Below, piece by piece: positions 39,394 through 64,000 of a DNA stretch of 64,000 nucleotides. A model generated the notes under the pieces. It saw only the letters and a list, made by a program, of their open reading frames with translations. It did not search any database and was not told the origin of the DNA. This DNA comes from Kribbella rubisoli. GTDB taxonomy: Bacteria > Actinomycetota > Actinomycetes > Propionibacteriales > Kribbellaceae. Position numbers and translations under genes: made by a program. The DNA lies in contig NZ_SHKR01000015.1 of assembly GCF_004217145.1 (NCBI RefSeq), forward strand, positions 496,001 through 560,000, given 5' to 3'. How positions within the stretch are numbered: the first letter of the stretch is position 1; every line of letters starts with the position of its first letter.

Positions 39394-39840
39394 ATGGACG
39401 ACGGTATAGCGGTCTTTTTCGATCTTGGTGACACCTTGGCGAGCGGGGTCTTCGAGCAGGGGCATCTCGCGCGCCTGGATGTGTACCCATTTGTGCCGGA
39501 GATTCTGGCGCGGCTCCGGTCGGACGGAGCCAGGCTGGGATTGATCTCCAACACCGACGAAACTGCCGCCACCATGAACAAGCTGCTGGACACGTCGGGG
39601 TTGGCGAGTCTCGTCGACGCGGGATTGTGCTTGTTCAGCTCGGTCGAGGGGATGGACAAGTCGGAGCCTGCGTTCTTCGTTCTGGCGCGGGATAGGGCGG
39701 GCTTGCCGGCGGCTCGGTGCGTGTTCGTGGGGGAGGACAGCGATGAACGCCGTACTGCGGCTTCCGTCGGCTTTCGGGTGTCGCCTCATCCGCTGCATGC
39801 GTTGCACCTGGTCGAGGCCGGGTTGCGTTCCCATGGCTGA
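39394..39840 (+). CDS. HAD-superfamily hydrolase-like protein
   Basis: A 148-aa HAD-fold protein. Motif I is FFDLGDTLAS (Asp10 and Asp13), motif II is LGLISNTDE, the motif III Lys is in MDKSEPAFF, and motif IV is VFVGEDSDERRTA. All four motifs are present, so it should be active as a phosphatase or related hydrolase, though it lacks a cap domain and is shorter than most. GGGGAGAGGCG precedes the ATG. It is the first gene of the plus-strand arm of the unusual cluster; the next starts 14 bp after its stop. Confidence 0.85.
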   Translation: MDDGIAVFFDLGDTLASGVFEQGHLARLDVYPFVPEILARLRSDGARLGLISNTDETAATMNKLLDTSGLASLVDAGLCLFSSVEGMDKSEPAFFVLARDRAGLPAARCVFVGEDSDERRTAASVGFRVSPHPLHALHLVEAGLRSHG

Positions 39841-39854
39841 TCGGAAGGAGCAGA

Positions 39855-40592: not shown

Positions 40593-43055
40593 GTGACGAC
40601 CAGCAACGAAGGATTAGCCGACCGAGGCCTCACCATCGAGCAGGTACGCACTCTGCGACAGACCCGAGGCTTGTCCTCGGCGGGGATCCAGGCCATCCCC
40701 GAGTCGGCGTTGGCGCGTGCGCTGCGACGGCTGGAGTACCCGGACATGCCTCGCGCCCGGGAGCTGTTCCGAAGGAACCAAGCGCGTGACGAACGTGGGC
40801 TGTTCCCCACGCACGCCCTGCTGGGCGCTGCCCGCCAGCTCGACAGCATCCGCCTGCGACGCGCCGAGCGGGCCGCCGTGGCAGGAGTGCCGACGGGAAC
40901 CACGGTCGCTCCACAGCGACTGGGCATGCATCCGGCGCCGACCGCCGGGCTGGCCCGTCCGAACTGGGTCTCGATCGGTCCCGGAAACATCGGCGGACGG
41001 ACGCGGTCCCTGGTCTTCCATCCGCAGGAGCCCGACACGATCTGGGCAGCCAGCGCGGGCGGAGGTCTCTGGCGCACCGACGACGCCGGGCAGACTTGGC
41101 AACCGGTCGACGACCTGATGGCGAATCTGGCTGTCACCTCCGTCGCGATCGATCCCACCGACCCGGACGTGCTGTATGCGGGGACCGGCGAGGGCTTCTT
41201 CAACGTCGATGCGATCCGCGGAGCCGGGCTGTTCCGCACGGTCGACGGCGTGACCTGGAGCCAGCTCCCCGCCACCCTCGGCGCACCTTTCGCAACGGTC
41301 AACCGGATCGCCTTGAACGCGACCGGCGAAGTTCTCCTCGCCGCCGGCACCGGCGGATTGTCGCGGAGTGCCGATGCGGGTCGCACTGCCTGGACGAAGG
41401 TGCTGACCGCGCAGATCGCAGACGTCAAGTGCCACCCGACGGATCCGGACAAGGCTGTCGCCGGCTCGCTGCGAGGCGGGACGGCGTGGTTGACAGCTGA
41501 CGGCGGCCAGACCTGGACGGAGGCTGAGCACGACACGCCGTGGGAGGGTCGCGTCGAACTGGCCTACGCCACCGCGGATCCCGAGGTCGTCTACGCGTCG
41601 GTCGACATCCGCAACGGAGAGATCTGGCGATCCACCGATGGCGGCGCCAGCTTCACCGCACGTACGTCGCTCAACGCCGACGGCGATCCCGCGTCGTACC
41701 TGGGCGACCAGGGCTGGTACGGAAACGTCATCTGGGCCGGGGATCCCGAGGACTCCGACCTGGTTGTCGTCGGCGGCGTCGACCTGTGGCGAAGCACCGA
41801 TGGCGGCGACACTGTGAACGAGATGAGCACCTGGTGGAGCCGCGAGTCCGCCCACGCGGATCAGCACGCGATCGCATCCCACCCGAACTTCGACGGCCAG
41901 AGCAACAGTACGGTGCTGTTCGGCAACGACGGCGGGGTCTACCGGGCGCCGGACATCCGCACGGTAGGCGACGATCCGGACCTGCCGAAGGTCAACGGCT
42001 GGCAGAACCTGAACAACGATTACGGCGTGACCCAGTTCTATTCGGGCGCCGTCAACTCCGAGGGCACGATCATCGGCGGCGCCCAGGACAACGGCACCCT
42101 GGCCTTCCATCCCCCCAACGGCGCCGACAAGTGGATCGAGATCTTCGGCGGCGACGGCGGGTTCTGTGCAGCGGACCCCCAGGATCCGGACATCTTCTAC
42201 GGCGAGTACGTCTTCCTGAACATCCACCGCAACCTCGACGGGGCAACCTCCGACGACACGACCGGCGATCGCTACATCAGTGGACAGTTCTGGGACGCGG
42301 TCAACGAGCGTTGGGACTTCAAGCCCGCCCCGTTCACCATCGCGGACGCCAAGACCCAGCGGGCAGCGTTCATCGCGCCGTTCACCCTGGATCCGAACGA
42401 CTCCGACCGAATGCTCGCCGGCGGCGAGTCGCTCTGGCGGACGAACGACGTCAAGGCGCCGAACACCCCGACGTCGGGACCCAAGTGGACCCGGATCAAG
42501 CCGCCGTCGGCTTCGCCCGGTTCCCCGCGGCCGTTCAATGCGATCAGTGCGATCTCGATCGCGCCGGGCGACTCGGATCGGGTCTGGGTCGGCTACGAGG
42601 ACGGCCAGGTCTGGCACAGCGATGACGGCACGGATCCGGCCCCGCTGTGGCAGCGTGTCGACGGCGTGGGCGCGGCGCCGCTCGTGACAGGGCGGTTCTG
42701 CACACAGATCGCACTGCCGGCCGGCCAACCGGACGTCGTACTGGCGACCTTCGGCGGCTATGTCGCCAACAATGTCTGGCGCAGCGACGACGGCGGGACG
42801 ACTTGGCGGAGCATCGGGGCCGGTTTGCCCGGGGCACCGGTCCGGGCGATCACCGTGCATCCACGTCGGCAGGATTTCCTCTATCTAGGCACCGAGTTGG
42901 GCCTGTTCGCGAGTGACGACGGCGGGACTAGCTGGTCGGCCACCAACGAAGGCCCGACCAGTTGCTCGGTCGAAGACCTGATCTGGAGTGACGAAACCCT
43001 GATCTGCGTCACTCATGGCCGGGGAATGTTCACCATCGACCTCTCGGGCGTATAG
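40593..43055 (+). CDS. Large BNR/Asp-box beta-propeller protein
   Basis: An 820-aa protein. After a charged helical N terminus (about residues 1-120, no signal peptide) come many BNR/Asp-box blades, e.g. RTDDAGQTWQ, LTADGGQTWT, RSTDGGASF, RSDDGGTTWR, SDDGGTSWS, as in sialidase-, sortilin- and xyloglucanase-type propellers. No catalytic sialidase Arg triad can be claimed. Its first blade (IGPGNIGGRTRSLVF, AASAGGGLW) matches the opening of the 1,153-aa protein on the opposite arm. The GTG start follows GGAAAGG. Probably a binding scaffold; the ligand is unknown. Confidence 0.8.
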   Translation: MTTSNEGLADRGLTIEQVRTLRQTRGLSSAGIQAIPESALARALRRLEYPDMPRARELFRRNQARDERGLFPTHALLGAARQLDSIRLRRAERAAVAGVPTGTTVAPQRLGMHPAPTAGLARPNWVSIGPGNIGGRTRSLVFHPQEPDTIWAASAGGGLWRTDDAGQTWQPVDDLMANLAVTSVAIDPTDPDVLYAGTGEGFFNVDAIRGAGLFRTVDGVTWSQLPATLGAPFATVNRIALNATGEVLLAAGTGGLSRSADAGRTAWTKVLTAQIADVKCHPTDPDKAVAGSLRGGTAWLTADGGQTWTEAEHDTPWEGRVELAYATADPEVVYASVDIRNGEIWRSTDGGASFTARTSLNADGDPASYLGDQGWYGNVIWAGDPEDSDLVVVGGVDLWRSTDGGDTVNEMSTWWSRESAHADQHAIASHPNFDGQSNSTVLFGNDGGVYRAPDIRTVGDDPDLPKVNGWQNLNNDYGVTQFYSGAVNSEGTIIGGAQDNGTLAFHPPNGADKWIEIFGGDGGFCAADPQDPDIFYGEYVFLNIHRNLDGATSDDTTGDRYISGQFWDAVNERWDFKPAPFTIADAKTQRAAFIAPFTLDPNDSDRMLAGGESLWRTNDVKAPNTPTSGPKWTRIKPPSASPGSPRPFNAISAISIAPGDSDRVWVGYEDGQVWHSDDGTDPAPLWQRVDGVGAAPLVTGRFCTQIALPAGQPDVVLATFGGYVANNVWRSDDGGTTWRSIGAGLPGAPVRAITVHPRRQDFLYLGTELGLFASDDGGTSWSATNEGPTSCSVEDLIWSDETLICVTHGRGMFTIDLSGV

Positions 43056-43087: not shown

Positions 43088-43333
43088 ATGGCCGAATCAC
43101 GGGTGACTGTTCGTCGGCGATTCTGGTTCGAGGCCGTACTAGCTGCTGTCACCGGCGTGCTGTTCGTCGTGACATTGTTCTGGCACGAGTGGCTGGAGGC
43201 ATTCGGATTCGATCCGGATCATGGCGACGGCTCGGCCGAATGGCTGATCGTGGGCGTGTTACTGCTGATCTGCGTGGCGTCGAGCGCCGTCGCGCGCATT
43301 GAATGGCGCCGGACCGCAATCGACTCGGTCTAG
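43088..43333 (+). CDS. Small two-helix membrane protein
   Basis: An 81-aa protein with two membrane segments (about residues 12-30 and 48-66) joined by a short acidic loop (FDPDHGDGSAEW). TTTGGAGGGAG precedes the ATG. One base separates its stop from the ATG of the peptidase gene, so they are translated together. It may anchor the peptidase or another cluster member at the membrane (inference). No family recognised. Confidence 0.75.
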   Translation: MAESRVTVRRRFWFEAVLAAVTGVLFVVTLFWHEWLEAFGFDPDHGDGSAEWLIVGVLLLICVASSAVARIEWRRTAIDSV

Positions 43334-43334
43334 G

Positions 43335-44885
43335 ATGGCGCCGCCTGTCATTCTGAAGGTCATCGTGACGAACCGCGCCGCGGCGCGGGCGAAGTACGGC
43401 GCGGGCGGGTGGCGGCAGATTCGGGCTGCCGTCACTGCGCTCGTCAAGGCAGACGCTGCCAGGGGGATCACCACCCGGCTGATAGCACTGGATTCGGCTG
43501 CTGACGCCCGCAAGGTCGGCGCCGCCCAGATTTCCGCTGTGGCCGATGTCGCCGGCACGAAGGCGCTCATCGACCAGATCTTCACCGCATGGGACCCGGC
43601 GTACCTCATGCTGCTCGGCGGTCCGGAGCTGGTCTGTCTGGTGAATCTCCAGAATCCCTTGTGGACCGGCGATCCGCAGGACGATCCGGACCAGTTCATC
43701 CCGAGCGACCTGCCGTACGCCTGCCCGACCCCGCTGACCTTCGCGGCCTCCGCCTATCGCGGCCCGACCCGGGTGGTCAGCCGAATGCCCGACCTCACCG
43801 GGGTGCACGACTGCGGCGCCCTGCTCACGCAGCTCGACCTCGCCGCGACCGCCCGAACGATGATCCGGCTCTCCCCGGAGCCGGTGTTCGCGGTGAGCGC
43901 GAAGGTGTGGCAGGTCTCGACCCGGAAGTCGATCGCGGGCCTGCCGGACGTGAGCGGCGTCGTGAACACGTCGCCGGCGGAGGGCCCGAGCTGGACCAAG
44001 AACCAGTTCGCGCCGAGGCTGCATTTCGTCAACTGTCACGGCGCCGAGTTCGATCCGGACTGGTACGGGCAGGCCACGCCCAGCAACTGGAATCTCCCGA
44101 CGGCTCTTGCCGCCAAGAACCTCCCGGGCCTGGCCGGTCAGGTGGTCGCCGCCGAGTGCTGCTACGGCTCTGCCCATTGGCCGCCATCGGCTGCGGGCGG
44201 CCAGGCCGGCCTGGCAATGACCTACCTGATCAACGGCGCCGCGGGAGTCTTCGCTGCGACGACCGTTGCCTACGGCCCGGCCAGCACGAACAACTACGCT
44301 GATGTGATGTGCCGGCTGTTCGGTGAAGAGGTGCTCAACGGCGCGTCGCTCGGCCGAGCCGTGCTGGCGGCGAGGCAGCGGTATGTGGCCGGCCAGCCGT
44401 TCATTGATCCGACCGATGTGAAGACGCTCGCGCAGTTCCAGCTGCTCGGTGATCCCTCCGCCGTACCGTTTCAGATGCCGGACGGCGGCTCTCCGCCCGC
44501 AGGCCGTCGCCGGCGGTCCGTTGTCGATCCACCGAAGGCGTCTGCAGCGACCCTGGCCCGCCGCGTCACCCTGACTGCAGTAGGGACGGCACTGGATCAG
44601 ACGATTCTGGCGAGTACGCCGGAAGCCCTGCCGCAAGCTGCCATCGACCGCGAGACGCTGGTCGGCTTGGTCGGTCGGGAACTCCCGTCGGACCTGGCGA
44701 TCCGCAGCTTCGGCACCGAGCGCACCGAGCGCACCGAGCGTGCAGCGGGCGGCGTACCGGCCGAGCGGTCGCCGCGCGTCCATGTCGCGTTCGTCCCGGC
44801 CGGCAGGCAACGTCCGCCGTCGCTGGTTCTGGTGCGGGAGCAACCGGGCGCCGACCCGGAGGTCCGGGTGGTGGTGCGTCGGTGA
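43335..44885 (+). CDS. C25/gingipain-like (caspase-fold) cysteine peptidase
   Basis: A 516-aa protein. The probable catalytic dyad is His235 in LHFVNCHGAEFD and Cys276 in VVAAECCYGSAHW, with the spacing and strand context of C25/caspase-like peptidases; the upstream IPSDLPYACP and GPTRVVSRMPDLTG match the pre-catalytic subdomain of gingipain-type enzymes. Neither a signal peptide nor a propeptide is seen, unlike secreted gingipains. The C terminus (from about 380) is a separate region with three tandem Thr-Glu-Arg units at 44714-44740. It overlaps the next gene by four bases (GTGA). Confidence 0.75.
   Translation: MAPPVILKVIVTNRAAARAKYGAGGWRQIRAAVTALVKADAARGITTRLIALDSAADARKVGAAQISAVADVAGTKALIDQIFTAWDPAYLMLLGGPELVCLVNLQNPLWTGDPQDDPDQFIPSDLPYACPTPLTFAASAYRGPTRVVSRMPDLTGVHDCGALLTQLDLAATARTMIRLSPEPVFAVSAKVWQVSTRKSIAGLPDVSGVVNTSPAEGPSWTKNQFAPRLHFVNCHGAEFDPDWYGQATPSNWNLPTALAAKNLPGLAGQVVAAECCYGSAHWPPSAAGGQAGLAMTYLINGAAGVFAATTVAYGPASTNNYADVMCRLFGEEVLNGASLGRAVLAARQRYVAGQPFIDPTDVKTLAQFQLLGDPSAVPFQMPDGGSPPAGRRRRSVVDPPKASAATLARRVTLTAVGTALDQTILASTPEALPQAAIDRETLVGLVGRELPSDLAIRSFGTERTERTERAAGGVPAERSPRVHVAFVPAGRQRPPSLVLVREQPGADPEVRVVVRR
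44714..44740 (+). repeat. Three tandem 9-bp repeats
   Basis: CACCGAGCG repeated three times inside the peptidase gene, encoding (Thr-Glu-Arg)3. A potential slippage site that keeps frame. Confidence 0.8.
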
Positions 44886-45124
44886 AGACGACCTCGACGA
44901 CCGGCACCATCTCGATCCGCCGAGTCGCGGCGGACTCGAAGAGTGATCAGGTGACGGTGGTTCTGACGACGCCGGATCACGCTTGGCTGTTGCGGCGTAC
45001 GGGGCAGCAGCCGTTCGGCATCGACCCGGACCTGGCCGAGCTCGACGGGAGAAGGGTGGCCGTCACCGGCTACGCGGGCGGAGGTGTCTTCCTGCTCACC
45101 GAGGATCCCGTCGCCCTCGATTAG
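44882..45124 (+). CDS. Small beta-rich protein
   Basis: An 80-aa protein (TISIRRVAADSKSDQVTVVLTT, DGRRVAVTGYAGGGVFLLTED), probably a small beta barrel. Its GTG overlaps the peptidase TGA by four bases, so it depends on peptidase translation; it could be an inhibitor or a partner of that enzyme (inference from coupling only). It ends 6 bp from the stop of the convergent 1,153-aa gene. No family recognised. Confidence 0.7.
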   Translation: MKTTSTTGTISIRRVAADSKSDQVTVVLTTPDHAWLLRRTGQQPFGIDPDLAELDGRRVAVTGYAGGGVFLLTEDPVALD

Positions 45125-45130
45125 GGACGG

Positions 45131-48100
45131 TCAGCTGAGCTGCAGCGACTTCGCCGCGGCGTGCGGCGAGGAGGTGACCAGCTGGTCGCCGGTCTGGGCC
45201 GTGTTCGCCCCGCCCAGCGCGAGATCGGCGGCGCTGATCTGATCCAGTTCGCTCATCACCACTGCCAGGAAGACCACCGCCGAGCCGGTTGCATCGGCGC
45301 TGAGATCGACGTCGAAGGTCACTGCCTTCGGGACTCGCGTGTCGACGCCGTCCGCGGGGCTCTGCCACAGGTCCGTCGATGCTCTCGACCAGCCGTCGGG
45401 CAGCGCTGCGGGCTGCGCGGCCGAGGGCGCGGCGGCCACCAGCGCGGGCCACAGCAGAGTGATCGGTACGACGCCGTCCGGGGGATAGCTGTGGCGCAGC
45501 AGCGCGACCTTCACTTTCGCTGCCGGCAGGGCGTCACTCCATCGATGATGGACGAGGACGTGGACCTTCAGGTGGCGTGCCTTCGTGGACACCTGGGCGC
45601 GATCGGTGGCCGGGCCGGCCTTGGGGACCTTCGCGAGCTGGGACTCCGTCGGTCCGGTAGCGGCGGCCGCACCGGTCGTATCGATGACGATGTCGGGGCT
45701 GTCGTCCCAATGAACGGGGTTCTGCTGGTCGCCGTTGAGCAGGGCGCCACCTGTCGGAGTCGGCAGGACCCGCCGCGTGTCGGTCGGATAGAGCCGCAGG
45801 AACGTCCGCGGTTTGGTGACCACCTGGCCGAGGTCTACCTCCCACACCCCGCGCGATTGGATCGCTGCTCGCAACAGCTTGACGCCGGAGCCGGAGAACA
45901 GCGAGAGGTCCTGGACGGCGGCCGTCGGCAGGCCGTTCATGAATCGCTCCCAGACCCACGAGTACGTCGGCGCGCCGCCGATGGTCAGCGTGCCTTTGAC
46001 CACGCCGACGCTGGTCGCGACGTACACCGTGCTCGGCAGGTCCGGATCGACGAGGACACCGAGCGCCGGTGACGTGACTCGGTCCGCCGGGGTCGACCAG
46101 GTGCCGTTCGCATGCGGGTTGCGCAGACCGGTCGGCATCCACTGGTCCTTGCCGTCGAAGAACCACAACGTGTCCCGTCCGGTGCCGCCGTACGGCGTGC
46201 CCGTCGTGGCGACGTAGCACGAGCCGAGCGGTCCCAAGGCAGGATCGTGCACAGACAGATCGCTCACGATGCCGGCTGCCGGGAGGAAGGCGAGCGGCTG
46301 CCCCGCTTGGAAGGCGGTTGTCTCGGCCCCGGGCAGTGGATCCTTGATCTTCTGCCGTGGCGTCGTGGCCATCGGCGTCCACGTGAAGGGCGCCGAAGCT
46401 CCGGCGGCGCGGCTGCCGACCATCCAGACCACGCCGGTCGCGTAGAGCGCGACCGCACGTAGCACGAGACGTCCGCCGGCGTCGTTGGGCGCGACGCTCA
46501 GCTTGACCGTGATGACACCGGAACCGCTCGCCCCGGTCCCCACATAGGTGCTGCTGCAGCAGTCCGTCGAGCCGACCGTGTCGCTGTAGGTGGCCGGCCC
46601 GGCCACCGGATTGAGCACGTCCTGGGCGAGGTTCGGATTGTCGCCGCCGCGCGGATCGGTTGCTGTCGGCAACGTCACCCAGGAGCGGCCCCAGTCGCGG
46701 CTGTACCAGACCCGGTCGCTGCCGAAGGCCAGGTGGGTCTCGTCGCCGTGTCTGACGGCTGTCGCGCCGGAGTAGAACAGGGATGCCTGGGACTCGATCG
46801 TCTCCGAGGTCTTGAGGGCGCTCTTCGCACGGGCCTGCCGGCGCTCGACGGGCGCGATGCCGGAACCGTCGCTGCTGTTCCAGGTCGCCTGGGTGTACTG
46901 CCGGAAGTACCGGCCCTTGTCGGCGGGGTCGAAGACGACTCCGCCGCCGTCGCCCCGGAACGACTGGCGCCAGACTCCGTCACCGGTACGGATCGCCGTT
47001 CCGTTGTCCTGGAATCCGGCCGCCACGACACCGGGGTTGGTCGGATGGCTCGCGACGAACCCGGGCTGCAGCACGGCCAGACCGTCGTTCAGGTTCGCGA
47101 ACGTGCCCGCATCTCCGTCGGCGTCGGAGCGGAACAGCCCGCCGTCGCAACCGACCCACAGCGTGTGTTTGGTCGCATCGGCCGGCGAGACCGGCCCGCC
47201 GCGTACGACGTGGACGTCGGCGTGCACCCCCTCGCCGACGAGGGTGGGGTTGGCCGCTGTCGCCGTTGTGTCGCACCGGTAGAGGGCCGCGTTCCATCCC
47301 GTCGACGTGGACACGGTCGCACCGCCGACGTAGACCCGGCCGGCGGTCGTCGGGTGGGTCTCGATGCACATGTCGTAGTCGGACTGGTCCGAGGCCGACA
47401 AGAACAGGTCCTCGGCCATCCCGGTCAGCCTGACCGCCGCGAGACCCGCCAGCGACGCCGCCGCGGCATCGACCAGCCACAACGCGGCCGGGGGATCCTG
47501 GCGCGAGTTGCCGGCGGGGATGACGGCGCGGCCGAGGGCGAAGAGCTTCGTGCCGTCAGTTGCCAGCCGTATGCGGGTGCCGCCCCGGTTCAGCCGGGCG
47601 GTCCGCGGGAGCGGATTCTTGGCGACGCCGGGCAGACCTACGGCCGTGAAGACCAGAGCTCCGAGGTTGATCGGGTTGGCGTCGGCGCCGGTCAGCTCGG
47701 CCGCCATCAGGGCGCTGGCAGTCGCCACCCAGATCCGCAGCTTGTCAGGTGCGAGACGGGTGAGGACCACATCGAGCGGCTGCGTCGCGAGGCCGTTGAC
47801 CCAGCTCACTGCCTTCGTCCACGTCCCGCCCGGGACCAGTACATAGAGGCCGTTCGTGGTCGCCGCGACGAGCTGATTCTTGACCGACGGATCGCCGGCG
47901 ATTCGGAAGAACCCGTGTCCCCGCAGGGTATCCGGGTCGGTGGTCCTGACATCGCCCTTGACCACCTGCCAGGCGCCGGCGGCTACCGCCGGGTCCCGGT
48001 TGAGGAAGCCGACGCCGAGGAGGTTTCCGCCGGGCAGGCCGCCGCCCGGGTCACCACCGGCCGGCAGCGCGGGCATCAGACCGCCGGCGGCGAGACGCGG

Positions 48101-52471: not shown

Positions 52472-53520
52472 AGACCACCCAGTACTTTCGCGGCCAGCTG
52501 GAACCTGTCGGCGAGGGCGCCGATCTTGATCGTCGCCACGAAGGCATCGGCTGTCGCCGGAACCGACGTGTCACCGAACACCTGGCGCAGCGGGAAGCGC
52601 AGCATCTGCAGGGCGAACTCGGCGGAGTCGACGGATGCGCCCATGTTGGTTGCGGCGATGTTGATCATGTCCTGGTTGAGCTTCTTCATGTTGATGACGC
52701 CCGGTGCGCCCGGCCGGAACGGCACCGGCACCGTGACGTCCTGGCCACCGGACTTGATCGGACCGTTGTTCGGAGCAGCCACATCCCGGACCGTCACGAC
52801 CGCGGTCTGCTGGGCCGGATCGGCGCCCGGGTCGAGCCGCACGCCGAACTGGATGCCGGACCGAGGTTCCTCGAGGTGTACGACGGCAGGGACACCGTCG
52901 AACAGCACCAGCAGAACGGCCGGCGCGAGTCGCTCCATCCGGAGCAACCGGACCCGGTCCGGACTCGTGTCCATATCAGGGATGGTCTGGTCGTCCGGGC
53001 GCGTGTCCGTCGCATAGGCGCGGACGTGCAGACCCGGCCACCCCGACACGAGGCGCGAACGCAGCAGGAAGCCGCTGATCTGACCCCCGGCGCCGATCGG
53101 TCGTCCTTCGGCGTCCACGGCCGGGGCGTCCGAATCCTTCATCCGTACCAGGCGTTCCGCTGCATCGACCTCGTCGCGCACGGTCCGGTACAGCTCGGCC
53201 AATTGGATGCGGTCCGCGGCATTGACCGTGCTCGCGCTCAATGCGCCCTCGACAAGGGCGTCCGTCGCGTTGCGGTCGAGGTAGAAGAAGCGGATCGTCT
53301 CGGCCGGGATCAGCTCGGCGTCCGGTACCAGATAGCTGAACGGCACGCCCTGGAGCAGACGCAGCTGGGCCAGGAACCGGACGATCTCCGCGGGTACGAC
53401 GCCGTCCGGCCTGATGCCGTCCTCGACGCCGTCGGGGCGGGGGAGCTGGGTGAGGGTCAGGGCCAGCGTTCCGACGGTCGCCTTCATCGCATCGACGTAG
53501 GTCTTGGTCTGCAGTTCCAT
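52468..53520 (-). CDS. Uncharacterised 350-aa protein
   Basis: A soluble protein with no recognised domain. It contains SYLVPDAELIPAETIRFFYLDRNATDALVEGALS, a distinctive segment (here in one stretch around residues 62-95, ending ...GALS) rich in aromatic residues, and a C-terminal helical part (MINIAATNMGASVDSAEFALQ is split by a turn). GGAGGA precedes the ATG. It is coupled to the gene upstream (one-base gap) and to that downstream (four-base overlap), so the three products are probably made in fixed ratio. Confidence 0.7.
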   Translation of the reverse strand: MELQTKTYVDAMKATVGTLALTLTQLPRPDGVEDGIRPDGVVPAEIVRFLAQLRLLQGVPFSYLVPDAELIPAETIRFFYLDRNATDALVEGALSASTVNAADRIQLAELYRTVRDEVDAAERLVRMKDSDAPAVDAEGRPIGAGGQISGFLLRSRLVSGWPGLHVRAYATDTRPDDQTIPDMDTSPDRVRLLRMERLAPAVLLVLFDGVPAVVHLEEPRSGIQFGVRLDPGADPAQQTAVVTVRDVAAPNNGPIKSGGQDVTVPVPFRPGAPGVINMKKLNQDMINIAATNMGASVDSAEFALQMLRFPLRQVFGDTSVPATADAFVATIKIGALADRFQLAAKVLGGL

Positions 53521-55504: not shown

Positions 55505-55602
55505 CGGCGTGCCCCCTTCTTCGCGGCTTTCTTCGCAGGCTTCTTCGCAGCCTTCTTGACGGCCTTCTTCGCAACCTTCTTGGTGACCTTCTTGGCGGTC
55601 TT
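55501..55602 (-). repeat. Lys/Ala-rich repeat coding for an H1-like tail
   Basis: The 3' end of the giant gene encodes repeated AKK/VKK units (for example AKKVTKKVAKKAVKKAAKK), then GARR and stop. It is highly basic and likely disordered, and suggests binding to DNA, RNA or an acidic polymer. Confidence 0.85.
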
Positions 55603-58600
55603 GCTGGGCTTGTCGTCGGCGGTATCGTCGCCGAGAGCGATGCTGACCTGCCGATCGCCGGGCCCGCCGACCAGCGGTTGCCGCACCGCCGCGGCGATCC
55701 CGGACCTGGCCAGCGATTCGGCCATCGCGACCGCATCGACAGACGTCCCTAGTACTCCGGCGAGCTGTCCCGTGCCGCAGCCCTCGACCGAGACCCGTGG
55801 ATTCGGGCCCTCGGTCTCGACCGCGTAGATCAGGATCGTCCGCACTCCGTCAACGAGGACCCGCGGCGGCTGCGGCGTACCGGTTGCGTCAAGCGACCGG
55901 ACCGCGTCGGCCAGGTTGATCGACACCTCGGCCGCCGCGTCGCCGCCGACCTGGTCGTCGATGACGACTGCGACTGCGCCGACCGGGTCGGTGAAAGCGG
56001 TGACCACGCGGGCCGCGGTTGCCAGTTCCCGTCCGCTGACCCAGCCGCCGTCGCCTCGCTCACGGTTGCCGGGCACTCTGCTGCCCTGAGCTGTGACGAC
56101 CACGCCGTCGCCGAGTGCGGCTCCCCAGCCCAGAGCAGGCAGCGACTGTCCGGCGTACCAGCCCGCGAAGGAGCCGCCCAGTGCGGCCGACTGTCCGAGT
56201 CCGACGACAATGACCCGTTCTGTTGCCATCGGCAACTCGACGTCGATCCGGGGCCCTTCCGACCCGACAATGCGATCGTCGAGCACCTGGCCACCGGCGG
56301 CGAGGCACAGGACCCGGGTCAGCACTCCGCCCGTCACACTCAGGACGTCGGGGTGCTTACCCGTCGGCCGATTCGCGATCGTCACCACCGCAAGCTCACC
56401 GTCATGCAGGATCGCTCCGCCCTTGGTGCTCTTGCCTGTCTTCGGCAGTCCAGCGACGAGACCCGCCGACATCGCGGCAAGGCGCTGCTGCGCAGCGGGC
56501 GTAGGCGCCGCGTTGGCGACGGCGCCGACCGCCTCCGACGCGAGCCGCGTCAGCGGTGTCACGCCGACGGCCGAGAGGGTCGGTCCGGCAGCCTGCGCCC
56601 GCCGCGGGATGAGGTGAAGCGCCATCTGGGTCTGGCCCACTGACGCGGCCTGAACGGTCGCGAGGCGCGGTGCAGCCAACGGTACGGCGGTGCCGCGGTC
56701 CCGCACCGTGGTCCTTACCGGCCGGTCGAGCGTCAACGTCATCGGGACGCCGAGCACGCTCTTCACCATCGGTGGCACCCGGCGCGGCGGCGTGGGGGAG
56801 CGGTCGACGACTGCGGTCACTTCCGTGGACACCGCGTCCGGGCTGTCGACGAGATCGTCGGCGAGCGAGCCGAACGTCGGCGCCGCCGCGCGTTCACCGC
56901 GCAGCGCGGCGACCGTCGTCCGTCCGTTGCCTGCGGCATCGAGTACGAGGGCGGCGCGGACGAACCGCTGATCGGCGCCCGGACTGCCGGCCACCAGGAC
57001 CTTCGCGGCGTCCTTCAGCGCCTTCGCTTCCGCGACCCGGCCGTCGGTCTGCCCGCGGTTGGTGATGAACGGGAGCGGTTTCCGCCCGGCCAGCGGCAGT
57101 TCGACCTGGTGATAGTTGATCGGCTTCGCGCCGGTGAACAGGCTGTCGGGCAGCCGAGTGTCGACGGTGAATCCGTCGCACCCGTTGACGGTGTCGCCGG
57201 CGGGAATGGTCTTCGCGTCCGGGTTCTGCGCCGGACCCCAGACGCCCTTCGGGAACTGGGCTGCCGGTCGCAGGGTCAGCCGGACAGCGTCCAGGCTGAA
57301 TGCCTGGTTCACGTCCGACGTCACCTTGACCGTGAGTGTCGAGTTCATCGTCGCGGCGTACATCGGGGCGACGCCGAGGCCAGGTGTGGCCACGGTCTCG
57401 GCGTGCGATCCGGCGGCGGAGGTGAGGGCGACCTGCTGACTCGGGACCGTGGTCACGAACGTCATCTGGAACTCGGGTACGACGCGGAACGGCAAGTCGG
57501 CGCTTCCGTCGGGCGGCTTGGCGACACCGCCCGAGTTCGGCGTACCGGACGTTCCGGCTGTCAGCGCGCCGCGGATGACGGCTGCCTGCACGACCTGGGC
57601 GTCCTTCTCGCCGCGAAGGTACTTCTGGGCGAAGTCGCCGGCCGACAGGGCCCGCTCGGCCGGGTCGGCCCGGTCGCCGAACGAGAACGGGATACCCACC
57701 CCGCAGATCGAGAAGTGTCCTTCGACGTGGATCGGCGGCCCGGACACGTTGACGTCGAAGCCGAGCGACACGTCGATGTCGATGCTGCCGAACAGCAGCC
57801 AGATGGTGATGCCGACCCGGGCTTCGGCGTACACGTCGATGTCGAAGAAGAACGGGTCGAAGAAGACGATGCCGTCGCCGCCGAAGTCCAGGGACGCGTG
57901 CGCCGGTCCCAGGTGAGCGGCGACGTGCATGCTGGCTCCGGCCATGATGGCCTCGGAGCACAACGCGAAGTACACGCCGCCTTCGACCTTGATGTTGCCG
58001 TTCGGCTGCCAACGCAGGCCGACCCGGGGCACCTCGGGATAGCCGTCGTGATGGAACCGCGGATGGTACCCGCCGACGGTGATCACGAACTGCCCGGCGT
58101 TCGGGCCCTTCCACCAGGTCTCGAACGCGAATCCACCCGTGAGCCGGACGGACTTGTCGAGCAGCCAAGAGTTCTCGGTGAGCTGGGCCTGGACCAGGAG
58201 GAGCCCTTCCTTGGTCGAGAACCTCGCGAGCAGCGCGAGCTCGATCGAGACCAGCGTGAGCACCGGCGTCGGGAGCAGCGCGCGGGCGAGTCCGAGGACG
58301 GCGATCTCGAGGCCGTCGCCGAACTGGACCGTCACAAGAATCTCTCCGGTGACCAGGACGAAGCTGGTAAAGCTGAGTCCGGCCGCGACCCAGTACTCGC
58401 CCCGGGCCGCAGGCACGATCGCGCGCATGTCCTGGAGTTGGCGCATCGGCTCGGGCGGCGGCCCGAACGCACGGAGCGCCTGCATGAACGGATGGGTGCC
58501 GATCTCGTCGATCGTCGGCGTGTGCAGGGCGCGGTTGATGCCGAAGCCGACGGCGATGCCGGTCACGAAGAACGCCGGCGGGCCGCCGATCGGGGCATGC

Positions 58601-61600
58601 AGGACCCCGAAGGCGAAGAACGAGGCGAACTCCTCGCCGCCGGGCGCGGTCGGGTGGGCGTAGCCGCCGAACATGTCGACCCGGTAGGTGCCGTAGCCGA
58701 TCTGGAGCATCCCGAGGTACTCGACGCCGCTGAGCGGGGCATCGAGCGGGAACTTCACCAAACCGCCGGCCAGGGTCAACGGGCCGAAGCTGGCTGCGAT
58801 CGCGAAACCGTCGACGTCGACCTCCCACGACGTCGGAGAGAACAGTGGCCGGGAGACGTGGTAGCTCAGCCGCAGCTTCTCGACCGCCGCGGTCAGACCG
58901 AGCAGCGACACCTGTCCGTCGAGGTAGAGGCTCACCATCTCCAGTTGCCGCGGGGTGAGGTTCTGCCGGTACGCGACCCCGAGGCCGACCTGTTCGAGGT
59001 ACACGGGCCCGAACGCGCGCTGGATCGGCAGGAACCACGGACCGTCGCCCTGACCTGCCTGCAAGGTGATTGCTACGCCAGTGCCGTGGTCCTGGACCGC
59101 GAGGGCCGGGCTGAACGCCGGCCGCGGTGGCGCGCCGCTGCCGCCCGCGTCCCGCATGATCCCTTTCGCGACGGCGTTCTCGCCGCCTCCGGACCCGAGC
59201 GGAACGGCAAGCCCGCCGAGCTCGACGTGTACGCCGCCGGCCAGATCCGGCACACCGCCACCGCCCAGAACGATGCTGCCGAACAGATGCAGCGCGACGG
59301 TTTCCAGCTTCAACCCGGCATCCACCAGCGGCCCGGTCGACTTGCCGAGACGAAGACCGACCCCGTTGATCGCGATCCCCGGTGCAGGTTCGATGCCGGC
59401 CCCGTTGACGCGCAGCAGGTCGAGCACGATGCCGGGAGAGGGGCGCGGGCCGGTGGGCGGCTCGATCCACGACGCATCCACCACGAGACGCAGGCTCAGC
59501 TCGCCGTCGGGGGTGAGGTCGATTCCCGCCTGGTCGGACGTTGACAGCGATACCCCGAGCACGCCGTCGGTGTTCGCGGCTCCGAACTCGAACTGACCCA
59601 CGGTGACCTTGGGAGCTGCCGTGGCGAACTCGTCGGCCAGCGTCAGCAGCTTTCCCGGCCAGCCGGACAGCACGTCGGGCAGCAGCCGCGGCGGGACGTC
59701 GTCGGTGAGGATCGAGCCCTCCAGGACGTCCTTGACCTTCAGGCCGCCGGTGCCGACGGCCTTGTCGAGAAGGTCCTGGATCTCTTGGACGCCGAGTACC
59801 CATCCGCCGACCAGGTCCAGCACGGCACTGATCGCGGCGAGCGCGACCGCTGTGGCGTTGGTGTCCTGCGCAACGTCACCTGTATTCGTCCGAGTGCTGA
59901 CGAGAACGCTCAGACCGTCCGCTTGCCGCCAGCGCCCCGCGAGTTCCCGATGACCGGCGGTGGTCGGGGACAGCGCGTCGAGCCCGAGCCCGACCTGGAT
60001 CTCCCAGCCGGATCCGGCGTCCGAGCCGGCCCGCACGAACGGCCGTACGATCGGTCCGTCCAGGTCGATGGTCGCCGGGCCGACGCCGGCCGACCACCCG
60101 GTCAAGCCGGTGGCGTCGAGGTCCATCGTGAGGTCGACGGCGTCGATGACGGGCAGGCCGGTCACGCTCGCCGACACCGAGACCGCCAGCGGGTTCGCAT
60201 GGATGACCGCTCGCGCGGCGCCGATGTCAACGGTCAGTACGCCGGCACCGGACAGTACGGCTGCATGCTCGCCCGCGGGCAGGTCCAGCAGCCGCACGAG
60301 CAGCGGATCGAGCGCGGCAACGCTCTCGGTGAGAAGCGAAGCGAGACGGGCACGAAGGTAGGCGGGCGGGTCAGCGGCCAACGCCTTCAACGCAGTCGAG
60401 TCGAAGACAGCAGGAGTTCCTGCGGCGAGAGCCAGGCCGCGACCCATCGCTCCGACCAGCTCGCCGATCTCGGTCCGTACGGCGTCTCCCGAGAGCGCGG
60501 CCAACTCGGTGAGAGCTCGGGGCAGTACCTCGACGACACCGGTCTGGAGCAGTGCCCCGAGTCCCGCTGTGTTCGGGTAGAGCTCGACGTCGGCGCCCGT
60601 CGCCGGGCGAAGGATCAGCCGTAGGGCGCCGCCGCCGACCAGCAGATGCGCGGCCCGGCGATGCTGCGGGGTCGTCGTACCGGCTGGACCGTCCGGCACC
60701 CCGAAGTACACCTCGATGCTCGGGCTGGGGGAGGTCCCTGACAAGGTCAGGCCGGCGGTGAAGCCGGCCGCGACCGAGGCAGGCAAGGCCAGCCACGACG
60801 TGACATCTACGGCGAGGGAGAGCACCGGACCCGATGATCCTGGCGTGGCGGTCACCGTGACGCCGTTGACGATCGGCCACTGACCGCGAGGGCTTGCCAC
60901 AAAGCCGAGGAAGGGCTTCAGCGACTCGAACAGGTTGATGACTTTGTCGGCGTCGAGCGGGCCGCCGGACACGACCGAGAGCTTCCCGGCCTCCCGGAAC
61001 CAGCGGGCCGGATCCTCGAACAGTCCGACCGGCGACGACATCGCCCGGAAACCCTGCGCGTCAGCGGCTTTCAGCATGCCGAGTGCGTCGGTGAGCGCCT
61101 CGAGCACCAGGCCGACCCGGCGATCGATCCGTCGCAGTCCCTCGAGCAGGATCCGGGTGGCCTCGGCGGGAACCGCAGTCATGGCGAGCTTGGCAAGACC
61201 ATCCAGATCGAGCGTCGGCAAGAGAGCTATCGGCGGTACGCCGGGGGGCCGGAGCAGCTGGACCCGCAGCGGAGCGGTCTCGATCGACAACGCGAAGGCA
61301 TCAGCGACCGGATCGCCCAGGCCGAATGCCGCCGTCGGGCGGCCGGAGCTGTCGAAGTCGACGGTCGCGTGACAGGCAAGGAGACCGTCGTTCGCCGCCG
61401 CGGTGAAGCCGACGGTGCGCGCGGCGAGATCGGCTGCGACGGTGACGGGGCCGGACGCAACCCGAACGCTGTCACCGGTCACAGTCATTCCGGGAACGAT
61501 GGCGGCGAGGGCGTCCAGCAAGGCTGTCCGGCTGGTCGCCTGCGCGGCCAATGCGGCCACATGCCCGCGCGGATCATGCAGGAGATGCAGGAGGGCGTCG

Positions 61601-64000
61601 GGGACGAGCGCCCCGCCGGGTTGAGTAATCGCCAGCGCGCTGAACAACGACGAAAGCAGTTGGGCCGGACCGGTCGGCACGGCCGCGAGTTTCGCTGTCA
61701 CCGCTGCGACAAGTGCCTGCGCCTCGGGCAGGATCGGCTTGGTTTCCAGCTCTCCGGTCGCCAGCCCGGGTGGTGCGGCGAGCAAGGCCGAGAAGTCGGC
61801 GCCGAGGGCAGAGCCCTCCTGCAAGGTGAGCTGTGCGGACGATTCGCCGCCATGCAACGCGATCTCGATGCGAGCGCTCAGCCGGCGAAGTTCGAGCGGA
61901 AGTGCACCGCCGCTCGGTACGACGCCCGGTCCGCCGATCAGCCACCCGTCCGTATCGGCGACAGTGAGTTCGAGAACCAGGCCTGCGCTCGCTGCCGAGA
62001 CCTCGCCGAGAGTCAGGGAAACGGCGCCGGTGACGGTTACGCCATGGCCTCCCGGCGGCAGGAGCAGGTCGAATGGCACCCGCAGAGCCGCCCTGGTCGA
62101 TTCCGGCAACGCGTTTGCTTCGGCGACCCGAGCCTGAGCTCTGCCCGACAGTCCGGCCGCGAACACCGCGGTCAGCGCACGTGCCACGGCGGCATCTTCG
62201 AGTACGCCGAAGACGGCAACGGCGGACAGGCCGGTACGGACGGGAAGCTGAGGCCGCGGTGCTTCGAGATCGGTCACGAACGGGACCCCGCGAGCAGCAG
62301 CCATGAAGCCGTCGACGAGCTGCCGTCCGAGCGCGAGATCGGCATCGTCGTGCTCGGCCGGATCCGGCGGCGGTAGCAGTGCGCGCAACAGCCGCACGGC
62401 ATCGGCAGGTACTCCGGTTCGCGCCGAATCGAAGGTGACCGGGCTCCACGGCGTACCCAGGGTGATCAGGTGGGTGACACCGGCCACTGCGTCGGCAGCC
62501 ATTCGTGCGGCGTGTCCGGCACCGCCGAGTGCGACCAGTACCACGGGCCCGGCGGTCGCGAGACTCCGCAGTACATTCTCGAGACGCTGTGCCTGGCCGA
62601 CCAGACCTGTTGGGTCGTCCACTCCGCCGAGAGTCGCGTCCGCTCGCGGTGCGAGGGCGACGACCCAGTCACCTGTCGCCGGAGCGGCCACCGTGAACGA
62701 GGCGGGTGCGACTCCAGGGGTTGTCAGGTCGAGCAGTCGTCCGGCCGAAGTCGTCCAAGCCGGGTCGCTCGCTGAGGTGATGGCAACGCGGACGACCACG
62801 GCGTTGGCAGGGAGACCGCCGTTCACCAGCGTGTCCAGTTGGAGTGAGGCCAGGCCGGTGTGATCCAGGTCGGGACACCGTACGACGGTCAGCGCCTCGA
62901 TCGGATCGGGTGGCGGCGCGACCAGCCCGTCGGTACCGACCCAGCGACCTACGAGGGCCGCGAGCCCGACGGCGATCCCGTCCCGTCCGGCCGCGAGGGC
63001 AGCGACGTCGGCACCGGCACGAGCTTCGTCGAAGAGCGCCTGGGCCAGGCCGTCCGGCGGTAGACCGGGCATGCCAGGACGCCAACCGGTCAACGCCTGA
63101 CCGGCCACCGAGGCTGCGAGTACCGGTCCGTGTGGAGCCATCCAGACCGACAGAGCTGGTCCGGTCCCGGTTGGCGTAAGCGCCGCGAGCCAAGGGTCAA
63201 CCGGCGTACCGGAGCCGCTGAACGATCCCGCCAAGCCGTCGAGACTCCCACCGAGCAGATGAGCGATGGTCGAGGTCAGACTCCCCAACAGGTCGGCGTC
63301 GGTCACCAGCGCGCGCAGCCAGGCCGTGAGTGTGGGACCTGGCGCGGCGACGAGCGACTGCAGCGACAGCCGCGGACCGGTCAGCCCGCCCGACAAGGTC
63401 CAGCCGGTGAGGTCGACGAGGTCGGAGAACCAACCCAGCGGCGCGTTCGCGGCGAGTACGCCGAACAGCGCTTCCACCGAGTTCCACGCTTCGGCCGGTA
63501 CGTCGATATGTCCCGCGGCATCAACTGTCGGCAGGACGAGCGGGATCCGGTCGACTCCGGTGTCGATCGCCAGACCCGGCGCGAGCAACTGGACGGCGAG
63601 GCCATGGTCCGGGCTCCAACCGGCCTGGAGACCGATGAAGTCCGCGGCGATGGCCACCGGCCCGAGTGCCAGTCGAGCCTCGGTCCCGCCGCTGGCCCGG
63701 AGCTTCACGGTCAGGTCGATCTGCAACGGGAAAGTGGCCCGAGGGCCGGCCAGGTCGAGCGCCGCGAGCCGAACCCGTACCTCGGTTCGCACCTCGGTGC
63801 ATCCGCCGCCGAGGTCGTCGACGAGCAGCGAGACGACAGGCTCGACCACGAGGACGCCGTCGACCAGCGCGAGATCAAGCCGGAGGTGGTCGATGATCGG
63901 TACAGACCACGGTCCGACGGCGGCGTCGACCACCGAGATCGCCTCGGTGATCTGGGCAGGACCGGCCACGAGGTTGCGCAACCGGGTCAGGACGGCAGGC
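55501..64000 (-). CDS. Giant DUF6603-like protein, truncated by the window edge
   Basis: At least 2,832 codons, open to the right edge, so the true start is outside. The middle (about 57.7-59.3 kb; GPVYLEQVGLGVAYR, LRLSYHVSRPLFSPTSWEV, FFDIDVYAEARVGITIWL, FSICGVGIPFSFGDR) resembles, from memory, proteins annotated DUF6603. The first 1,500 residues are long beta-repeat-like stretches rich in Leu, Ala, Gly and Val; a GGAGHAARMA segment hints at a Rossmann-like or alpha/beta-hydrolase-like insert. The last 33 residues (55501-55602) are almost only Lys, Ala and Thr/Val with KKA/KKV steps, as in histone H1-like tails. No signal or membrane helix is seen in the available part. First visible gene of a coupled operon. 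Confidence 0.75.
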   Translation of the reverse strand, partial: PAVLTRLRNLVAGPAQITEAISVVDAAVGPWSVPIIDHLRLDLALVDGVLVVEPVVSLLVDDLGGGCTEVRTEVRVRLAALDLAGPRATFPLQIDLTVKLRASGGTEARLALGPVAIAADFIGLQAGWSPDHGLAVQLLAPGLAIDTGVDRIPLVLPTVDAAGHIDVPAEAWNSVEALFGVLAANAPLGWFSDLVDLTGWTLSGGLTGPRLSLQSLVAAPGPTLTAWLRALVTDADLLGSLTSTIAHLLGGSLDGLAGSFSGSGTPVDPWLAALTPTGTGPALSVWMAPHGPVLAASVAGQALTGWRPGMPGLPPDGLAQALFDEARAGADVAALAAGRDGIAVGLAALVGRWVGTDGLVAPPPDPIEALTVVRCPDLDHTGLASLQLDTLVNGGLPANAVVVRVAITSASDPAWTTSAGRLLDLTTPGVAPASFTVAAPATGDWVVALAPRADATLGGVDDPTGLVGQAQRLENVLRSLATAGPVVLVALGGAGHAARMAADAVAGVTHLITLGTPWSPVTFDSARTGVPADAVRLLRALLPPPDPAEHDDADLALGRQLVDGFMAAARGVPFVTDLEAPRPQLPVRTGLSAVAVFGVLEDAAVARALTAVFAAGLSGRAQARVAEANALPESTRAALRVPFDLLLPPGGHGVTVTGAVSLTLGEVSAASAGLVLELTVADTDGWLIGGPGVVPSGGALPLELRRLSARIEIALHGGESSAQLTLQEGSALGADFSALLAAPPGLATGELETKPILPEAQALVAAVTAKLAAVPTGPAQLLSSLFSALAITQPGGALVPDALLHLLHDPRGHVAALAAQATSRTALLDALAAIVPGMTVTGDSVRVASGPVTVAADLAARTVGFTAAANDGLLACHATVDFDSSGRPTAAFGLGDPVADAFALSIETAPLRVQLLRPPGVPPIALLPTLDLDGLAKLAMTAVPAEATRILLEGLRRIDRRVGLVLEALTDALGMLKAADAQGFRAMSSPVGLFEDPARWFREAGKLSVVSGGPLDADKVINLFESLKPFLGFVASPRGQWPIVNGVTVTATPGSSGPVLSLAVDVTSWLALPASVAAGFTAGLTLSGTSPSPSIEVYFGVPDGPAGTTTPQHRRAAHLLVGGGALRLILRPATGADVELYPNTAGLGALLQTGVVEVLPRALTELAALSGDAVRTEIGELVGAMGRGLALAAGTPAVFDSTALKALAADPPAYLRARLASLLTESVAALDPLLVRLLDLPAGEHAAVLSGAGVLTVDIGAARAVIHANPLAVSVSASVTGLPVIDAVDLTMDLDATGLTGWSAGVGPATIDLDGPIVRPFVRAGSDAGSGWEIQVGLGLDALSPTTAGHRELAGRWRQADGLSVLVSTRTNTGDVAQDTNATAVALAAISAVLDLVGGWVLGVQEIQDLLDKAVGTGGLKVKDVLEGSILTDDVPPRLLPDVLSGWPGKLLTLADEFATAAPKVTVGQFEFGAANTDGVLGVSLSTSDQAGIDLTPDGELSLRLVVDASWIEPPTGPRPSPGIVLDLLRVNGAGIEPAPGIAINGVGLRLGKSTGPLVDAGLKLETVALHLFGSIVLGGGGVPDLAGGVHVELGGLAVPLGSGGGENAVAKGIMRDAGGSGAPPRPAFSPALAVQDHGTGVAITLQAGQGDGPWFLPIQRAFGPVYLEQVGLGVAYRQNLTPRQLEMVSLYLDGQVSLLGLTAAVEKLRLSYHVSRPLFSPTSWEVDVDGFAIAASFGPLTLAGGLVKFPLDAPLSGVEYLGMLQIGYGTYRVDMFGGYAHPTAPGGEEFASFFAFGVLHAPIGGPPAFFVTGIAVGFGINRALHTPTIDEIGTHPFMQALRAFGPPPEPMRQLQDMRAIVPAARGEYWVAAGLSFTSFVLVTGEILVTVQFGDGLEIAVLGLARALLPTPVLTLVSIELALLARFSTKEGLLLVQAQLTENSWLLDKSVRLTGGFAFETWWKGPNAGQFVITVGGYHPRFHHDGYPEVPRVGLRWQPNGNIKVEGGVYFALCSEAIMAGASMHVAAHLGPAHASLDFGGDGIVFFDPFFFDIDVYAEARVGITIWLLFGSIDIDVSLGFDVNVSGPPIHVEGHFSICGVGIPFSFGDRADPAERALSAGDFAQKYLRGEKDAQVVQAAVIRGALTAGTSGTPNSGGVAKPPDGSADLPFRVVPEFQMTFVTTVPSQQVALTSAAGSHAETVATPGLGVAPMYAATMNSTLTVKVTSDVNQAFSLDAVRLTLRPAAQFPKGVWGPAQNPDAKTIPAGDTVNGCDGFTVDTRLPDSLFTGAKPINYHQVELPLAGRKPLPFITNRGQTDGRVAEAKALKDAAKVLVAGSPGADQRFVRAALVLDAAGNGRTTVAALRGERAAAPTFGSLADDLVDSPDAVSTEVTAVVDRSPTPPRRVPPMVKSVLGVPMTLTLDRPVRTTVRDRGTAVPLAAPRLATVQAASVGQTQMALHLIPRRAQAAGPTLSAVGVTPLTRLASEAVGAVANAAPTPAAQQRLAAMSAGLVAGLPKTGKSTKGGAILHDGELAVVTIANRPTGKHPDVLSVTGGVLTRVLCLAAGGQVLDDRIVGSEGPRIDVELPMATERVIVVGLGQSAALGGSFAGWYAGQSLPALGWGAALGDGVVVTAQGSRVPGNRERGDGGWVSGRELATAARVVTAFTDPVGAVAVVIDDQVGGDAAAEVSINLADAVRSLDATGTPQPPRVLVDGVRTILIYAVETEGPNPRVSVEGCGTGQLAGVLGTSVDAVAMAESLARSGIAAAVRQPLVGGPGDRQVSIALGDDTADDKPSKTAKKVTKKVAKKAVKKAAKKPAKKAAKKGARR

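Follow-up and report, generated by a model that had tools for sequence, protein, structure and literature searches.

The stretch of DNA analysed here, referred to as the window, comprises 64,000 nucleotides of a 715,339-base contig from Kribbella rubisoli (NZ_SHKR01000015.1, positions 496,001 to 560,000) and carries a minus-strand operon built around a giant protein of the DUF6603 family. Together with three further core proteins, denoted u660, u350 and u1289, this giant belongs to a core that is retained in Paenibacillus and Lachnospiraceae as well as in Bacteroidota, cyanobacteria, proteobacteria and actinobacteria, and three of the four core proteins of the window have no recognised family. 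This stable core with replaceable genes at its ends suggests a machine of a new kind, for defence or antagonism. Exchanged destructive enzymes and binding modules, a sporadic distribution, copies on plasmids and matches of metallo-beta-lactamase (MBL) proteins to Lamassu, AVAST and DRT models are conflict-like traits that point to a modular conflict system. Our leading interpretation, tentative and held with slightly less than even confidence, is that an undescribed conflict system, which has moved between phyla and probably serves intracellular defence, is represented in the window by its actinobacterial 'giant' branch. If defence or antagonism is indeed its role, the system would add a core without a recognised NTPase or nucleotide signal, organized around a beta-rich giant that resembles lipid-binding and barrel proteins. 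The operon also provides DUF6603, a family without a described function, with a testable context.

Organization of the operon

The open reading frame listing places five genes on the minus strand of the window at 45131-48592, 48602-52471, 52468-53520, 53522-55504 and 55501-63999, which encode, in the same order, proteins of 1,153, 1,289, 350, 660 and 2,832 amino acids, the last remaining open at the window edge. Neighbouring genes overlap by 4 bp at 55501-55504 and at 52468-52471, or are separated by a single base between 53520 and 53522 and by nine bases between 48592 and 48602. A run of plus-strand genes ends at 45124 and the minus-strand operon at 45131, such that the two converge six bases apart. 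These coordinates confirm the borders, overlaps and convergence described in a first reading of the sequence alone (the original prediction), which had also proposed extending the contig to the right. In that extension the reading frame of the giant (55501..64000, minus strand) runs past the window edge to approximately position 65532 in window numbering, giving a full length of ~3,343 amino acids, and a small gene precedes it. The start, a GTG codon, was placed there because a 60%-identical homologue (L118) begins at the matching residue. Gene starts in general were taken from a simple caller and are frequently too long.

Distribution and co-inheritance of the core

Related loci were collected by a pattern search for u350 restricted to one genome per species, which yielded 92 relatives; 80 loci were kept and 12 were dropped. 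Clusters corresponding to u660/u350 were called in 77 of these loci, to u1289 in 72 and to DUF6603 in 70, with several of the contigs ending within the operon. The loci span Actinomycetota, Gemmatimonadota, several proteobacterial classes, Bacteroidota, Cyanobacteria, Bacillota, Nitrospira, SAR324, Acidobacteria and other groups. Gene order is mostly DUF6603-u660-u350-u1289 on a single strand, often with u660 and u350 fused into one protein; exceptions are loci in which u1289 lies elsewhere, namely L071, L085 and L086 (cyanobacterial) and L114, and some in which no u1289 was seen. An independent ASCERTAINMENT that took DUF6603 as its starting point covered 24 places from 23 genomes other than that of the window, and the full set with u660/u350 and u1289 was present in 13 of the 24. 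Pairwise distances of the core families over 39 loci were strongly correlated (r 0.91 for DUF6603-u1289, 0.79 for DUF6603-u350 and 0.80 for u1289-u350), compared with a permutation maximum of 0.19. The view that the minus-strand genes constitute a coupled set is thus upheld by the cluster counts, by the loci found through DUF6603 and by the correlated divergence. Homologues scattered in unrelated contexts were not seen for the core, and DUF6603 taken alone occurs in other clusters as well.

Within the closer lineage, presence of the operon is sporadic. Among 58 relatives u660 gave seven matches including the window, of which three were at full strength (the window, G028 and G055) and the rest were weak and partial; G028 and G055 both have the order giant-u660-u350-u1289-BNR with a gene of ~230 amino acids before the giant. 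The Pfam model of DUF6603 matched 24 of 246 genomes of the class, that of the window included, and none of 14 control genomes; a second match, in G064, fell below the cut-off. Plasmid records of Embleya, Streptomyces clavuligerus and Paenibacillus sonchi carry the core or parts of it, with the giant undetected on the P. sonchi record, and copies on plasmids account for 8 of 72,556 records. Carriage by phages or viruses was considered and rejected, as the 35 pattern matches in viral contigs included no gene for a relative and phages yielded 0 records.

Several individual loci are of separate interest. On the Paenibacillus polymyxa plasmid p-YT9A (L148) a gene annotated as 'phage baseplate assembly protein V', accompanied by GH-E nuclease, pentapeptide and ankyrin genes, is found at a distance of ~7-11 kb from the operon, and on a plasmid of Streptomyces sp. 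NBC_01276 (L149) CATRA conflict-system and CHAT genes are located ~5-10 kb upstream of a DUF6603 operon. A strong u350 match (E 5.2e-78; L033, G532:C25:951-1757) is found in a 2.8-Mb genome from another family of the phylum. The loci of the DUF6603-based set that lack the full core resemble a second type of DUF6603 cluster, represented by L019, L021 and L123, and partly by L020 and L124, in which DUF6603 stands beside a very large protein and a protein of ~1,340-1,500 amino acids that shares the motif LETRF near its start; the very large protein of L019 and L021 includes a short u660-like stretch. L021 also encodes a 564-amino-acid protein with the motif DPLWTLARQWQ, and neither this nor its LETRF protein matches a Pfam family, and L020 also contains S8-like and Amidohydro_2 genes.

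The DUF6603 giant

The original description of the giant as DUF6603-like is borne out by Pfam, in which it matches PF20248 at 394 bits against a curated cut-off of 27 (E 1.1e-117). The domain covers residues 1659-2151 of the windowed part (57547..59025, minus strand) and is the only family above cut-off in Pfam and NCBIfam; Pfam itself describes DUF6603 as a family of unknown function. For structural comparison, the 919-amino-acid DUF6603 protein of L106 was modelled with AlphaFold2 from a 46-row alignment, giving a predicted long antiparallel beta meander (mean pLDDT 75, pTM 0.57). Foldseek returned ApoB100 as the top match (E 2.4e-5, TM 0.15/0.26), followed by an usher, SlpA and other barrels, with low TM throughout. 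Comparison by VIA returned porins at Z ~13 over residues 241-629 with a root-mean-square deviation (rmsd) of mostly 12-14, including OccK11 at Z 13.3 over 280 residues and rmsd 12.6. Since Z values of ~13 coincide with rmsd mostly of 12-14, the strand order of the model fits porins and its curvature does not. The alternation of residues in the modelled strands is amphipathic, at 2.69 versus 1.41 for shuffled sequences, as computed on 25 hand-chosen strands.

An alpha/beta-hydrolase-like segment of the giant (62299..62856, minus strand) was read by eye from its motif and is unreported by Pfam. Across 23 aligned rows, representing 22 genomes with Actinopolymorpha rutila entered twice, the nucleophile elbow reads GHS or AHS in 8; another residue takes the place of the serine in 12, among them the window, and the segment is absent in 3. 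If this assignment is correct, an 'enzyme' would have been absorbed into the giant and would then have decayed in the branch of the window.

The core proteins u660, u350 and u1289

The remaining core proteins were defined by locus clustering (u660, 53522..55504; u1289, 48602..52471) and, in the case of u350 (52468..53520), also by pattern search, all on the minus strand. None of the three matches a Pfam family; NCBIfam and PHROGs gave nothing beyond one chance-level match, and Protein Data Bank sequence profiles gave chance-level matches only. The fused u660/u350 protein of L073 was modelled at a mean pLDDT of 76.8, and a known fold was sought and rejected, with no Foldseek match at E <= 0.001 and a best VIA Z of 5.8. 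The model suggests only Ig-like sandwiches, and the missing match is no proof of a new fold.

The operon proteins had been described as lacking Sec signals in their visible parts, and a crude hydropathy test agrees: no N-terminus in the window reaches the Sec-signal reference of 2.47, though the giant (2.14) and the C25 peptidase described below (2.0) come near. The same test, applied across loci with approximate starts, placed Sec-type N-termini above threshold in 0 of 39 fused u660/u350 proteins, 0 of 44 u350, 1 of 51 DUF6603 and 9 of 64 u1289 proteins. An ordinary secreted hydrolase cluster was rejected on the grounds that few core proteins have a Sec-type N-terminus by this crude test.

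Exchangeable genes at the two ends of the core

The position 5' of DUF6603 was characterized for 40 proteins, 35 from the 80 loci and five from L011, L013, L014, L121 and L122; in L078, L093, L104, L109 and L115 the enzyme gene was taken two or three genes upstream. An enzyme signature is present in 30 of these 40 proteins, comprising 15 MBL, 12 endonuclease/exonuclease/phosphatase (EEP), a lipase (L070), a LanM-like and an HNH-like protein. At E 0.01 Pfam assigned Lactamase_B to 12, Exo_endo_phos to 7 and Lactamase_B_2 to 3, and Lipase_3, DUF4135 (which we take as LanM-like), Methylase_S and MDHAR3-like_C to one each, with several of the matches below curated cut-offs. Motif searches located WN[LIV] with SDHxP, presumably the EEP signature, in 12 proteins; HxHxDH in 9 and THxDxDH in 6 of 7 tested, both of which we class as MBL; and HHIVP, which we read as HNH-like and which Pfam does not confirm, in one. 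Eight further loci outside this set added two HNH-like (L133, L135) and two MBL (L134, L136) proteins. PADLOC, run on the same 40 proteins, matched LmuA in 7, RTasMBL in 7, Avs1a in 5 and PDC-M48B in 5 and 1. Some of the relatives have an MBL gene, as indicated by motif for 15 of the 40 5' proteins and by the PADLOC LmuA/RTasMBL models for 7 of 40; the window's own branch has none, and there no separate 5' enzyme was recognised. Separately, the LanM-like DUF4135 protein of Ferrimonas aestuarii (L105:994-3012) at the 5' enzyme position is an unusual partner and no obvious nuclease.

On a 35-row DUF6603 tree (FastTree, run with warnings of long branches and uneven composition) the 5' class changes 13 times; the least possible number is 9 and the shuffled mean is 21.1, with a value as low in 0 of 200 shuffles. 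Because 13 lies between the minimum and the shuffled mean, the 5' class is clustered on the tree and has nonetheless been repeatedly replaced. One such pair is formed by Taibaiella L080 (MBL) and Methylovulum L093 (EEP), which are sisters with 100% local support and have cores that are 59-64% identical.

At the opposite end, 56 proteins encoded downstream of the core, or in some loci beside it, matched 63 families. Among the 25 listed, Fib_succ_major was matched by 5 proteins and Hint models, Vint included, by up to 5. The propeller models kelch, WD40, YNCE and BNR, which overlap one another, were matched by 2-4 proteins each, and Laminin_G_3 and HYDIN-type Ig by 2 each. The branch of the window, the giant subtype, has at this position the 1,153-amino-acid BNR-type protein (45131..48592, minus strand), which falls into cluster c6 in 7 of the 80 loci and has tblastn matches in 11 loci, two of them from the same genome. 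It has no Pfam match above cut-off, and its propeller-like label derives from a sub-cut-off NCBIfam match and from 25% identity to an 820-amino-acid BNR protein encoded on the plus strand.

In Lachnospiraceae-type loci (L069, L075, L090, L094, L099, L102, L107, L109 and L115) the 3' gene encodes a protein of ~600 amino acids (cluster c4) that ends in a common domain, with a Hint/Vint match in some members. The 3' proteins of L078, L080, L093 and L096 have C-termini that look Fib_succ_major/C-type-lectin-like, and that of L104:13791-15896 presumably resembles a phage tail collar domain. Fib_succ_major/C-type-lectin-like domains can be targets of diversity-generating retroelements; a crude motif scan found no reverse transcriptase in L078, L080, L093, L096 or L112.

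The C25 peptidase and neighbouring genes

The plus-strand gene at 43299..44885 encodes a caspase-fold peptidase that matches Peptidase_C25 in Pfam at 38.1 bits against a cut-off of 23 (E 1.4e-9) and carries the motifs NCHG and ECCYGS, which we take to be catalytic. The adjoining plus-strand gene at 44882..45124 encodes a small protein of 80 amino acids and converges with the BNR-type gene. The proposed tie between this peptidase and the operon stands in part. Homologues in a Frankiales metagenome-assembled genome (L037, 55% over the main match) and in Streptomyces sp. MMG1533 (L041, 44%) are both convergent at the BNR end of the operon and accompanied by the same kind of small gene; in L037 the gene next to C25 encodes a homologue of the 80-amino-acid protein itself, and this homologue groups with its counterpart in L041. 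The peptidase is, on the other hand, present in only two of 11 giant-subtype genomes, and among the 58 relatives the window's own copy is the only one, so that it is missing even from G028, which has the full operon. As the sole homologues among the 58 relatives and the 11 giant-subtype genomes sit convergently at the same end of the operon, the C25 gene is no chance neighbour. Judged by sequence comparison, the link is conserved in three lineages and is optional.

Other neighbours are less closely associated. A probable membrane protein of 81 amino acids (43088..43333, plus strand) has homologues both close to the C25 gene of L037 and adjacent to the operon of L050, and apart from that gene in L037 the remaining plus-strand genes are unconserved in two extended stretches. 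The 820-amino-acid BNR/Sortilin propeller (40593..43055, plus strand) belongs to a generic Pfam family with matches in 47 of the 58 relatives and is not supported as a specific partner, and the HAD and PQQ genes, originally counted as members, have no relative in related loci. On the other side of the operon, the gene of ~230 amino acids that overlaps the upstream end of the giant has homologues at the same place in L118, L119, L117, G055 and G028; L095 contributes a weak match. Beyond it lie a plus-strand gene and an S8-type peptidase with no evident link to the operon; the latter (L002:11761-15519) is, by eye, a secreted protein of 1,252 amino acids. Farther out, ~24 kb upstream of the giant (L003:14965-18657, ~90.4 kb in window numbering), a 1,230-amino-acid protein with the N-terminus MSAVFISHSNVARDQAEAEAFGKALADAGYENVFLD appears TIR-like by eye.

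Functional interpretation

Under an intracellular defence role, the core would build a large cytoplasmic assembly in which the DUF6603 subunit exposes an extended amphipathic beta surface that could contact membrane or lipid. Proteins from the 3' end would recognise a trigger or target, and recognition would free or activate the 5' enzyme, nuclease-like in most sampled loci and a lipase in one, to damage nucleic acid or membrane. In the branch of the window, with its degenerate hydrolase-like segment in the giant, the convergent C25 peptidase would be the likely processing or executing enzyme. The fixed-ratio subunits and proteolytic processing of the original prediction are likewise hypothetical. 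Intracellular defence, of an abortive type, is favoured by a small margin over an exported particle, mainly because the core shows no evident Sec signals, the 5' enzyme has a gene of its own and no injection component was recognised. A fuller and more doubtful proposal, which we regard as possible, is a new cross-phylum conflict machine in which an apoB-like or barrel-like amphipathic beta giant and three scaffold proteins of no recognised family would form a membrane- or lipid-associated assembly. Gene exchange would equip one end of it with various nucleases or lipases and the opposite end with various recognition propellers or lectins, killing having moved in one actinobacterial branch from a separate nuclease to a caspase-like C25 peptidase.

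A number of observations weigh against the defence interpretation. The 80 loci are a non-random sample, because the u350 matches derive from two short peptide patterns, and their counts are not independent, since Actinopolymorpha rutila appears twice (G055, L039) and the Paenibacillus loci L073, L079 and L110 are near-identical. A first look with the u350 profile across the phylum, in which few candidates were scored, gave 4 of 296 genomes. Correlated distances show co-inheritance only, because joint horizontal transfer or a shared species history gives the same result. Among the loci found through DUF6603, a divergent u660-like protein is the sole partner in 4 of 24, and 7 of 24 are without core partners by profiles; because the DUF6603 profile also failed in 4 of those 7, the family includes other cluster types. 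The annotated plasmid contexts amount to three copies. At the 5' end, 10 of the 40 proteins have no recognised enzyme (L014, L052, L058, L059, L060, L068, L069, L083, L090 and L095), and 35 were used of 40 loci with a same-strand gene less than 400 bp from DUF6603, those left out (L071, L076, L085, L086 and L114) having four genes of 96-234 amino acids and one u1289 as neighbours. Such a gene is absent within 400 bp in eight further loci (L063, L082, L084, L088, L101, L106, L108 and L116), of which L084 has an M16 peptidase gene farther away. The proteins matched by PADLOC are MBL proteins, whose superfamily serves many other roles. The core has no recognised sensor NTPase or nucleotide-signal gene, and the Fib_succ_major, collar-like and lectin tips would equally suit an outward-facing device.

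Such a device, a Sec-independent toxin-delivery complex released by lysis, would carry the 5' enzyme as payload, DUF6603 as a membrane-inserting beta structure and the 3' proteins as receptor-binding tips, with processing by Hint domains or C25. The payload-like exchangeable enzymes, the 3' genes with propeller, lectin, Fib_succ_major or Hint domains, the beta-barrel-like and apoB-like fold matches, the lack of evident signal peptides and the baseplate V and GH-E nuclease genes near one plasmid copy would all fit. We nevertheless consider it somewhat unlikely, given that the window proteins match no sheath, tube or Tc-like family, that the enzyme is unfused to the core in all 30 signature-bearing cases, and that no immunity gene was noticed, although no systematic search for one was made. 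The amphipathic meander and its best Foldseek match, ApoB100, could also belong to a lipid- or membrane-handling machine, a bridge or lipoprotein-like assembly with housekeeping enzymes and no part in conflict. EEP and MBL superfamilies include lipid phosphodiesterases, and the lipase gene of L070 and the hydrolase-like segments of the giants point the same way. We judge this role distinctly improbable: nucleic acid is the target that suits the HNH-like genes and the MBL genes of LmuA/Avs1a type, and sporadic presence (full-strength u660 in 3 of 58 relatives, DUF6603 in 24 of 246 genomes) combined with exchange of enzymes is unlike housekeeping.

A further alternative, compatible with any of these, is that the minus-strand operon is real and that the plus-strand C25 and small genes are unrelated neighbours. 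Absence of the peptidase from nine of the 11 giant-subtype genomes, A. rutila among them, and from G028 argues for this; the convergent position of the two other homologues at the same operon end, each with the same kind of small gene, argues against it and leaves it, in our estimation, unlikely.

Comparison with known systems

Neither DUF6603 nor PF20248 was named in any paper found (subscription papers and preprints lay outside the search), and no title or abstract among the matches listed describes the operon; term searches of PMC7159879 and of the available part of PMC12419801 also yielded no such operon. These searches are consistent with the original statement that no named system has this set of genes. 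Polymorphic toxin systems share exchangeable enzymes and Hint domains with the loci described here. They differ in that here, in the 30 signature-bearing cases, the enzyme has a gene of its own and forms no C-terminal cassette, with the hydrolase-like segment of the giants internal, and in that no immunity gene was noticed here, no systematic search having been made. Tc toxins and contractile injection systems are presumably alike in combining, within one operon, giant proteins that show no evident Sec signal with an exchangeable enzyme and tip; unlike them, the window core has no sheath, tube, baseplate or Tc family by Pfam, or by PHROGs for u660, u350 and u1289.

The nearest parallels may lie with MBL pro-nuclease and protease modules. 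Unlike MBL-effector systems, the window's core matches none of their families, with no SMC-like, STAND NTPase, helicase or reverse transcriptase sensor by Pfam and NCBIfam; the MBL loci described here gave no recognised protease, although no systematic search was made, and the branch of the window has C25 and no MBL gene. According to the available part of PMC12799240, in Hachiman and AVAST proteases activate MBL enzymes that are pro-nucleases, related nucleases accompany caspases in canu loci, and caspase-nuclease loci have Ig-like folds. Like the modules of Hachiman, AVAST, Lamassu, DRT and canu in that part of the paper (PMC12799240), the loci described here can have a separate, typically upstream MBL-fold gene, 7 of 40 matching LmuA/RTasMBL. 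They also share protease or caspase partners and Ig-like folds with canu, and the exchange of effectors with MBL modules (PMC12799240, same part).
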